From assembly GCA_017999985.1 (NCBI GenBank), contig JAGNKU010000001.1, forward strand, positions 549,276 to 613,275: 64,000 nt of DNA, read 5' to 3'. The notes under the pieces were generated by a model that worked only from the letters and a program-made list of their open reading frames with translations, was not told where the DNA came from and searched no databases. Positions 34,273 to 37,557 of the stretch are shown piece after piece; the stretch's first letter is position 1; each line of letters opens with the position of its first letter. The translations under genes and the position numbers were made by a program. This DNA is from Phycisphaerae bacterium. Lineage in GTDB: Bacteria; Planctomycetota; Phycisphaerae; UBA1845; Fen-1342.

Positions 34273-34700
34273 GGAAGGGATCGAGGGAATGAGGGATCGA
34301 GGGATCAAGGGACGGGGAACAGGGAACAGAACCCCAAGCGGCAGCGCCGGGCCGGCGCAGCGCGACGATGTTACAGAAGGGTGGCGACGTCGCGGCGGCG
34401 CCAGAACCCCGAGCGGCAGCGAGTGGGTCTTGTGGCACCGGCGTCCCGCCGGTGTCGCTGGCCGCGCTGCGCTCGCCGGCTGGCGCCGCCGCGCGGTAGT
34501 GCGAAGTTGTACTTCGCACAGTCGCGGCTCGCTTCCCCGCGCAGCGCGCCCGTCGCCAATCAGAACCCCGAGCGGCAGCGAGTGGGCCGGCGCAGCGCGC
34601 AGCACACAGCGCGCTCCTCGCTCATCATGGTGGATTATACGTGGCTGTCGCTCGATCTTGTCCCTCGATCTTAAGGGGCCAAGTAGGAACCGGTGTTCTC
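34273..34700. repeat. 428-base repeat cluster after the YbjQ-like gene
   Basis: Right after the stop, five octamers run in tandem: GGGATCGA, GGGAATGA, GGGATCGA, GGGATCAA, GGGACGGG (34277-34316). Copies of CAGAACCCCGAGCGGCAGCG follow near 34326 (diverged), 34402 and 34560. A perfect palindrome GTGCGAAGT/ACTTCGCAC lies at 34499-34519, and a CACCGGCG/CGCCGGTG hairpin near 34436. A related CTCGATCTT tract in inverted sense closes the block (34651-34675). No gene is seen. Confidence 0.8.
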
Positions 34701-35111: not shown

Positions 35112-35625
35112 GGACCGTCCATTGGTGACGTGTGAGCATCCGGAAGGTTGTCGCAGCGACTATGGCTGGTCTTGCTGCCCTCGGATGCAACGGTTGAGGA
35201 AAATGGGGACATTCTGCCTTCTACTATATTTGTTTATTAGGGACAGCCACCTATAATCTTGGCGTGATCGGGGAAGATCGCACTTTCTTCTGCCCGCTGC
35301 GCTGGCCCGCTCGCTGCCGCTCGGGGTTCTGGCGCAGTCGGCGACCCGCCTCTTCCCCGTGGCTGTTTCGCCCCGTCGCTCCGTCGTTTCCCCTCCGTGC
35401 CTCGGTCGCGCGTCCGGGTCCGGTCAATCGGCCGACTCGGGGGTTGGCCGCTACGCGCGCTGCGCGGGCCCTCGCTGGCGCTTCGGGCTCGATCAGATGC
35501 GTGCGCGCGAGCGTACCGCCTCACTGAAACGGACGCATAACAGGGGTGGGACGGGCGTCCCGCCCGTCGTCGGAACGGGCAAGATGCCCGTACCACCCAG
35601 GCTGGAGTGATCCTGAAACACTTCG
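35112..35625. repeat. 514-base repeat-bearing gap before mutL
   Basis: An AT-richer part (35200-35260) contains GGGGACATTCTG and GGGACAGCCACC, which look like leftovers seen beside transposase genes, though no transposase remains. An inverted copy of the GAGCGGCAGCG element lies at 35308-35333. GGGCCCTCGCTGGCGCTTCG at 35466 recurs inside mutL. The double-hairpin palindrome is at 35544-35597. Apparent open frames are repeat-derived and were not called as genes. Confidence 0.65.
35544..35597. repeat. dispersed double-hairpin palindrome, copy 2 (inverted)
   Basis: It begins GGGTGGGACGGGCGTCCCGC and ends AAGATGCCCGTACCACCC. Its reverse complement matches copy 1 at 21169-21227 over both hairpins, including an identical 25-base end. 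It lies just beyond the 3' end of mutL. Confidence 0.85.
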
Positions 35626-37557
35626 CTAGCGGCGATGGAACTGCCGCTCCAGGTCGCGGAGGGACAGACGCAGCGTCGTCGGGCGGCCGTGCGGACAGTG
35701 GCTGCTGCGCTCCGCTACAGCGCGGCGTTGCAGGAGTGCATCGATTTCCGCCGGCGTCAGCGGGTCGCCCGCCTTCACCGCCGCCTTGCACGCCATCATG
35801 TCCAGCACTTCGTGCAGCAGCGTGTCCGGGTTCGGCCGGGCGCCCTGCTCGGCGAGCAGGTCCAGCAAGTCGCGCACGAACCGCTCGTGGTCCACACGCT
35901 CCAGCAGCAGCGTCGGAAACGACTGCAGCGCCACGCTCTGCGGGCCGGCGGGCGACAGCTCGATCCCCAGCCGGGCGAGGGCCGCGGCGTGCGTCTCCAG
36001 CGCTTCCAGCCGGTCCGGCGGCACGCGGACGAGTTGCGGCAAGAGCAGCCGCTGCGATTCGAGGTTGCGCTCGGCGATGCGCTGCCGCAGCTCCTCGTAC
36101 AGGATGCGCTCGTGCAACGCGTGCTGATCGACGAGCATCAGGCCGTCATCGGTCTCGACCACGAGATACGTGTTGTGGATTTGCAGGGCGCGCGTCGGCG
36201 GGGCTTCGGCCGTGAACTCGCCCGGCTCCGGCGTCAGACGCTCCGACGGCCGCAGGCGCGCGACCTCGGCCGGGGTGGTGCGAACCGGCGGCGACGCCCC
36301 GCTTGAATCGGTGGGCGGTGCCCACCCTACGGCTGAATCGGCGGGCGATGCTGGCCCTGCGGTGGCGGGAGTGATGGGCGGTGCCCACCCTACGGTCGGC
36401 GCGGGCGCGACGTGTGGGGCCCTCGCTTGCGCTTCGGGCTCTGATGGCGTGCCTGCGTGCCTGGGTGCCTCGGCCGCCGGTCCCCGCCGGAAGAAATCCA
36501 CCATCGCCGCCTTCACGCGCTCGCGATAGTCCTCGTCCTCGCGCGGCGTGCGGAGCGGGTGATCCAGGTTGCTCGACAGGAACTTGTCGCGCAGCGCCGC
36601 CAGCACCTGCCCGTGCACGTAGTTCGAGTCCTGCCAGCGCACCTCGACCTTGGTCGGATGCACGTTCACATCCACGTGCCCCGGATCGATCGTGATGAAC
36701 AGGAACGCGACCGGCGAGCGCGACGGATCGATGAGGCTGCGATATGCCTCCTTGATCGCGTGCGAGACGAAGCGGTCGCGCACGAAGCGGCCGTTGACGA
36801 AGACATACTCCCACTTGGTCGAGCCGCGACTCTCCGCGGGCGGCGCGACCAGCCCCTCAACCAGCACGCCGCCGCCCTCCCGGCGAATCGGTAGCAGGAC
36901 CGCGGCGAGTTCCGGCCCGTAGAAGTCGGCGATGCGCTGCCGGCGATCGGTCGTGGAAGCCAGGCGGTGCGTGACGCGGTCCTGGTGTTTCAGCGTGAAG
37001 GCGATCTCTGGCTGGGCGAGGGCGATCCGCGCTAGCTGCTCGGTGATGTGCCCCATTTCGGTCTGGTTGGTGCGGAGGAACTTCCGCCGGGCGGGCACGG
37101 GGTAGAACAGATCGCGGACCTCGACGGTGGTCCCGGGCGGCGCGGAGCAGGGCCGCGGCCCGCGCAGTTGCCCGGCCTCGACCTGCAGCTCGTGCCCCAC
37201 GTCGCTGTCGCGCCGGCGCGAGATCAGTTTCAGGCGTGCGACGGCCGCGATGCTGGCGAGGGCTTCGCCGCGAAAGCCCAGCGTGTGGATGTTGAAGAGG
37301 TCCTCGTCGGTGCGGATCTTGCTGGTGGCGTGTTGCGTGACGGCCAGCTCCAGGTCGGCGGCGTCCATGCCGGCGCCGTCGTCCGTCACCTGGATCAGCC
37401 CCCGGCCGCCGTCGAGAATGGCGATGTCGACGCGCCGGGCCCCGGCGTCCAGCGCGTTTTCCACGAGCTCCTTGACGACGCTGGCCGGCCGCTCGATGCA
37501 CTCGCCGGCGGCGATCCGGCTGATGAGGGCGGGCGGCAGCAGGCGAATCTCACCCAT
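35626..37557 (-). CDS. mutL: DNA mismatch repair protein MutL, endonuclease type
   Basis: A 643-residue MutL. The N-terminal GHKL ATPase has ELVENALDAGA, TDDGAGMD and HTLGFRGEALASI. The C-terminal domain has the latent endonuclease motif DQHALHERILYEE, fitting DQHA-x2-E-x4-E, then MACKAA, CPHGRP and ERQFHRR. So this MutL probably nicks DNA itself, as in bacteria without MutH. The ATG at 37557 was chosen; 127 further upstream codons lack homology. The linker (about residues 361-417) is composed of dispersed repeat elements, giving VGWAPPI and VGWAPPT peptides. A TATACT box sits close upstream on the minus strand. Confidence 0.95.
   Translation of the reverse strand: MGEIRLLPPALISRIAAGECIERPASVVKELVENALDAGARRVDIAILDGGRGLIQVTDDGAGMDAADLELAVTQHATSKIRTDEDLFNIHTLGFRGEALASIAAVARLKLISRRRDSDVGHELQVEAGQLRGPRPCSAPPGTTVEVRDLFYPVPARRKFLRTNQTEMGHITEQLARIALAQPEIAFTLKHQDRVTHRLASTTDRRQRIADFYGPELAAVLLPIRREGGGVLVEGLVAPPAESRGSTKWEYVFVNGRFVRDRFVSHAIKEAYRSLIDPSRSPVAFLFITIDPGHVDVNVHPTKVEVRWQDSNYVHGQVLAALRDKFLSSNLDHPLRTPREDEDYRERVKAAMVDFFRRGPAAEAPRHAGTPSEPEAQARAPHVAPAPTVGWAPPITPATAGPASPADSAVGWAPPTDSSGASPPVRTTPAEVARLRPSERLTPEPGEFTAEAPPTRALQIHNTYLVVETDDGLMLVDQHALHERILYEELRQRIAERNLESQRLLLPQLVRVPPDRLEALETHAAALARLGIELSPAGPQSVALQSFPTLLLERVDHERFVRDLLDLLAEQGARPNPDTLLHEVLDMMACKAAVKAGDPLTPAEIDALLQRRAVAERSSHCPHGRPTTLRLSLRDLERQFHRR
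36305..36473. repeat. dispersed repeats in frame inside the mutL linker
   Basis: Two copies of GGGCGGTGCCCACCCTACGG (near 36312 and 36375) and one decayed copy (36335-36365) are palindromic. GGGCCCTCGCTTGCGCTTCG at 36417 matches the intergenic copy at 35466 with one change. At 36447-36470 three octamers follow: GCGTGCCT, GCGTGCCT, GGGTGCCT. All are translated without breaking mutL. Confidence 0.8.

Follow-up and report, generated by a model that had tools for sequence, protein, structure and literature searches.

The closest described relatives of the repeats reported here are the REPs. According to a study published in 2013 (BMC Genomics, PMC3733652), REPs also occur inside genes, with DNA-repair genes prominent among them, and in other species the TAG stop codon of a gene was described as coming from a REP; the main text makes no mention of mutL. 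A literature search for REPs in Phycisphaerae gave nothing specific. Rickettsia palindromic elements (RPEs) share with the repeats described below that they are palindromic and lie in frame in protein genes, which are likely still functional. However, RPEs end in CGTC, as stated in the same study (PMC3733652), whereas the tag of the mutL repeats is GTAG, and an assignment of these repeats to the RPEs was therefore rejected. The palindromes in the mutL gene studied here are very probably GTAG-REPs that were copied by their cognate RAYT, multiplied locally and tolerated in a disordered linker.

The mutL gene and the repeats in its linker

The window (the whole stretch of Phycisphaerae DNA that was analysed, 64,000 nucleotides in length) contains the following features. 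The five linker elements are given in the order of the coding direction (36476-36449, 36441-36417, 36393-36373, 36360-36340 and 36330-36310).

35626..37557, minus strand: mutL, 643 aa (Pfam PF13589, PF02518, PF01119 and PF08676; TIGR00585)
36199..36486, minus strand: MutL linker, residues 358-453, predicted disordered and hypervariable in 27 family members
36449..36476, minus strand: period-8 array (GAGGCACC CAGGCACG CAGGCACG), read EAPRHAGTP
36417..36441, minus strand: dispersed repeat 'SASEG', 25-mer GAGCCCGAAGCGCAAGCGAGGGCCC, read SEPEAQARAP
36373..36393, minus strand: GTAG-REP with one mismatch, read VGWAPPI
36340..36360, minus strand: putative decayed GTAG-REP (15/21), read AGPASPA, assigned from its sequence and its register
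36310..36330, minus strand: GTAG-REP, exact 21-mer GTAGGGTGGGCACCGCCCACC, read VGWAPPT, with a predicted hairpin
35466..35490, minus strand: second SASEG copy, intergenic, downstream of mutL, 24/25 identical to the element at 36417
35429..35454, minus strand: REP of another RAYT-linked family (GTAGCGGCCAACCCCCGAGTCGGCCG), one mismatch from the REP that flanks the RAYT at G000:C12:12136 on both sides

MutL matched four Pfam MutL/GHKL domain profiles above the cut-off as well as TIGR00585 (557 bits; cut-off 180). It contains the ATPase motifs, the DQHALHERILYEE endonuclease motif, ACKAAVKAG and CPHGRP, and is by motif an endonuclease-type MutL in which the ATPase and the DQHA(X)2E(X)4E metal site are both intact (sequence, Pfam, NCBIfam). 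Judged from the sequence, the reading frame looks intact. In an AlphaFold2 model built from 18 sequences (mean pLDDT 69), block-mean pLDDT values were 25-30 over most of the length of the linker, which is accordingly predicted to be disordered. Linker length between fixed anchors was 91-161 aa (median 121) in the 27 family members, whose named relatives are metagenome-assembled Phycisphaerae/Phycisphaerales; with 129 aa, the present linker has thus not been made unusually long by the repeats.

A sequence-only reading had placed five in-frame elements of at least three families between the ATPase and endonuclease domains. All five, belonging to three families, were located there (36310, 36340, 36373, 36417 and 36449), and the additional copy of the 36417 element that it had noted in the gap at 35466 was recovered (24/25 identity). 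Its description of the encoded peptides as VGWAPP-type agrees with the MutL-frame reading, EAPRHAGTP / SEPEAQARAP / VGWAPPI / AGPASPA / VGWAPPT, and its view that the linker tolerates insertion is well founded, given the hypervariability and the predicted disorder of this segment. The decayed copy at 36340 and the copy at 36310 stand in a 30-bp (10-codon) tandem register (AGPASPADSA / VGWAPPTDSS), and all GTAG-REP copies in mutL share one orientation and are direct repeats. A clean empty site could not be demonstrated among the relatives, because their linkers do not align at this place. In the sister genus G015, the mutL linker is free of REPs; there, the TAG stop of the gene comes from a REP that starts at the last codon (L085:3606-3626). 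In the gap that separates mutL from its neighbouring gene, the C12-family REP (35429-35454) lies close to the SASEG copy of 35466. SASEG cousins (GAACCCCGAGCGGCAGCGAGTGGG type) are found at 34404-34427, 34563-34586 and 35306-35329, upstream of mutL in window coordinates.

The GTAG-REP and its transposase

Besides its GTAG tag, GTAGGGTGGGCACCGCCCACC (21 nt, written on its own strand) has a perfect stem of 7 bp with a loop of 3 nt; the predicted hairpin energy is -7.9 kcal/mol (z -3.1 compared with shuffles). As read from the sequence, only one of its six frames contains a TAG stop, and the other five are open. REP copies were surveyed by pattern search and in stretches around REPs. With up to two mismatches, the 21-mer was found in 24 copies in this genome (G000), with sharp borders and unrelated flanks, and in none for the reversed pattern. 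Because the copies recur genome-wide and are lacking in reversed controls, the palindromes in mutL do not represent chance matches. Ten of the 27 family genomes contained the 21-mer, in 2 to 137 copies each, the highest number being that of G015. The 21-bp palindrome is a GTAG-REP: a tagged short palindrome that is dispersed, mainly extragenic and RAYT-linked.

Matches to Y1_Tnp were obtained at seven places in this genome. One of these, at G000:C14:66290-66862 (frame L051:1426-2028), is a RAYT. It scored 184 bits against NCBIfam NF047646 (REP-associated tyrosine transposase; cut-off 80), carries the motifs HIH and EYIHYNPVKHG, and is bracketed by five 21-mer REPs, two upstream (C14:66223 and 66258) and three downstream (66910, 66987 and 67037). 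In seven other genera, the RAYT orthologue has its own REP variant alongside: the orthologues of G015 and G011 adjoin the same REP, and those of G014, G021, G025, G017 and G019 a different palindrome of the GTAGGGTG type. Tagged palindromes of the GTAGGGTG type, in genome-specific forms, were present near 8 of the 10 RAYT loci of the subfamily; the control loci, 430 kb in total, gave 3, of which two lie at the end of G015 mutL. REP variants of 22 nt were confined to 5/27 genomes, including the three whose RAYT has such a variant alongside. The presence of a close RAYT went together with that of the 21-mer (7/8 versus 3/19 genomes; Fisher p 0.0009, with the kinship of the genomes ignored). Exceptions were G005, G006 and G007, with few REPs and without a close RAYT, and G010, with a RAYT and without the REP. 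At least two further RAYT-REP pairs were identified in this genome (C12; C1:400526), giving at least three in all. RAYT-REP pairs co-vary across related genera.

Intragenic repeats and the origin of the mutL copies

To score REPs inside genes, a crude screen was used, based on codon usage trained on long frames of REP loci and on the highest-scoring window of 60 codons to either side of the REP; with only the adjoining 50 codons, mutL is overlooked, as its linker is itself not coding-like. Copies internal to a coding frame amounted to 2/24 in this genome (both in mutL) and 10/93 in G015, where the screened regions were 60 stretches from the top of the hit list. By the same rule, 334/600 random positions in this genome and 454/600 in G015 (56-76%) were in frame, these positions having been drawn near REPs, so that they may not represent the genome. 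REPs are thus depleted from genes, and the contrast is large despite the crude screen. The expectation that the palindrome would recur elsewhere in the genome was borne out by its 24 copies, which lie mostly outside genes.

In this genome, mutL is the only gene in which any of the 24 REP copies lie between recognised domains. Few other frames had Pfam support: in GT87 and YhcG the REP is found at the C-terminus, and in an epimerase and an M2 peptidase it precedes the domain, so that all four were rejected as clear internal insertions. In G015, the seven affected frames encode MalQ, an aminoacetone-oxidase-like FAD protein, NuoH, a PMT-like (glycosyltransferase-like) protein, a dynamin-like GTPase and two membrane proteins. 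The REP of nuoH is N-terminal to the domain. In the FAD oxidase, about 29 residues including one REP have nothing comparable in the orthologues of 9/10 relatives, and the remaining orthologue, from G017, carries an insert of another kind. Beside the REP in the G015 insert (L318) lies a second palindrome, CGTCGGCCTCGGAGGGCCGACG. In malQ (L234:613-2211), an inverted REP pair with a 14-bp spacer occupies a loop within the GH77 domain. A pure insertion was rejected in this case, as the pair takes the place of a loop of similar or greater length, which suggests a replacement rather than a simple insertion.

These data bear on the idea that mutL, or DNA-repair genes as a class, are a preferred target of REPs, perhaps with an effect on the mutation rate. 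The singular position of mutL among the 24 copies, the REP-derived stop codon of G015 mutL and the numerous REPs that PMC3733652 describes within replication and repair genes would fit such a preference, but there are no repair genes among the seven affected frames of G015, the cases are few and linker disorder is an evident confounder, making it unlikely. The proposal of the sequence-only reading that the repair gene itself became a repeat target therefore holds in so far as mutL does contain REPs, but not in the sense of a special role, as the in-frame copies of G015 are in metabolic and other genes. The mutL case is a good example of an already described type of event and is not special to DNA repair.

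A different view would be that the linker peptides are functional and selected, for instance as proline-rich partner-binding motifs, and that their likeness to genomic repeats is secondary. VGWAPP is present twice in the linker, and MLH linkers can carry essential short stretches, such as residues 594-613 of yeast Pms1 (PMC6393296). However, VGWAPP was absent from the MutL linkers of all 26 family relatives, most REP copies are outside genes, and the repeat is kept as a 21-bp DNA hairpin, for which other proteins use three or more different reading frames (VGWAPPT, VGGAHPT, GGQCPPY). Since the relatives do not have the peptide and other proteins read the REP in different frames, the unit is the DNA repeat rather than the peptide, and selection for the peptides is very unlikely to be the explanation. 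Neither of the two observations that would have contradicted the sequence-only reading, linker peptides shared by homologues or a lack of further palindrome copies, was made, and its interpretation is supported. Shortening of the E. coli MutL linker from 100 to 60 residues produced no mutator phenotype (PMC6902014), although the linkers of yeast MLH proteins respond sensitively when they are shortened, scrambled or lengthened (PMC6393296); MutL function therefore likely tolerates the repeats in the linker.

SASEG was found in 22 copies in this genome (up to 3 mismatches; reversed-pattern control 0). There is no support for classing it as a REP, because it is without a GTAG or CGTC tag and folds no better than shuffles (z -0.5). 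One 21-mer REP copy directly abuts a SASEG copy (L008). SASEG copies near RAYT-like frames are seen in L029 (G000:C1:179807-180170) and at G016:C249:6398-6846. It was only in these two genomes, G000 (C1:179807/180146) and G016 (C249:6398/6822), that SASEG lay no more than 450 bp from a RAYT-like match, which hints at a transposase partner for SASEG as well. The linker of G018 contains a SASEG-like stretch, GAGCCCCGAGCGCAAGCGACGGGCC, whose GACGGGCC end matches a SASEG variant in the G018 genome. The octamer array is less specific, with 23 matches in this genome and 5 in the reversed control. Period-8 arrays directly follow the AMVDFF motif in MutL of several related genera; on the MutL tree, with labels set by eye, they did not form a single clade, the 8 labels needing 7 changes, which does not improve on shuffled labels, and their scattered occurrence fits repeated gain and loss. 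Of the dispersed palindromes and octamer array noted at the outset, the palindromes are indeed dispersed, but the array is not unique to this genome. An origin of the repeats by chance or slippage, as low-complexity GC-rich sequence in a hypervariable linker without a mobile element, would suit the octamer array, similar arrays being found at the same place in the linkers of relatives, but is refuted for the REP and SASEG elements by the recurrence of exact 21-/25-mers about 20 times genome-wide with unrelated flanks and empty reversed controls, is at odds with the RAYT linkage and is extremely improbable as a general account.

For the preferred origin, from REPs copied by their cognate RAYT, the following course is proposed. 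Non-autonomous REP hairpins would be copied by the HUH/Y1 RAYT at G000:C14:66290-66862, and in the lineage leading to this genome, copying of a single-stranded hairpin would have placed at least one REP in the mutL linker. Local multiplication would then have generated direct repeats whose 30-bp unit and 63-bp spacing are each divisible by three. The second and third copies probably arose by local duplication rather than by separate transposition, because mobile units usually take the form of an inverted pair (REPIN), whereas the copies in mutL are direct repeats. The SASEG repeat and the octamer array would have reached the same tolerant stretch separately. As 21 bases equal seven codons and one in six frames contains TAG, most in-frame landings are readable; the REPs may have persisted because they cause no frame shift, are stop-free in most frames and lie in a predicted disordered linker that is free in length and sequence. 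We infer that the RAYT mobilised these particular mutL copies, and likewise the order of events and their selective neutrality. It is highly doubtful that the in-frame direct 21-bp repeats, which are spaced by 63 bp, allow the length of the mutL linker to be switched reversibly. If they did, recombination or slippage would add or remove exactly 21 residues and alter mismatch repair, and a RAYT-spread element would feed back on genome stability.

Comparison with known systems

The locus offers a clear, checkable case in which transposase-spread hairpins have become part of the sequence of a conserved repair protein, and comes from a bacterial class in which REPs are little described. It suggests that such events survive where the length of the element is divisible by three, its frames are open and the host segment is disordered, and the family provides a natural series of RAYTs and REPs that changed in step with each other. 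With the GTAG-tagged REPs of PMC3733652, the elements share the GTAG tag, a short perfect stem, a dispersed and mainly extragenic distribution and the association with a RAYT; the difference lies in the organism group, here Phycisphaerae. The intragenic REPs in that source are similar in having in-frame copies in some genes, including DNA-repair genes, and in providing a TAG stop (here in G015 mutL). REPINs (PMC3116915) are likewise made of REP units, and the inverted pair in G015 MalQ has the REPIN layout; the mutL copies, being direct repeats and not an inverted pair, were rejected as a REPIN. As in the REPtrons of TnpAREP/RAYT (PMC8266576), the RAYT gene is bracketed by its own REPs, here as known from the sequence, and the REPtron Sm of Stenotrophomonas (PMC8266576) is very similar in that GTAG is immediately followed by a perfect stem of 7-8 bp with a 3-nt loop.
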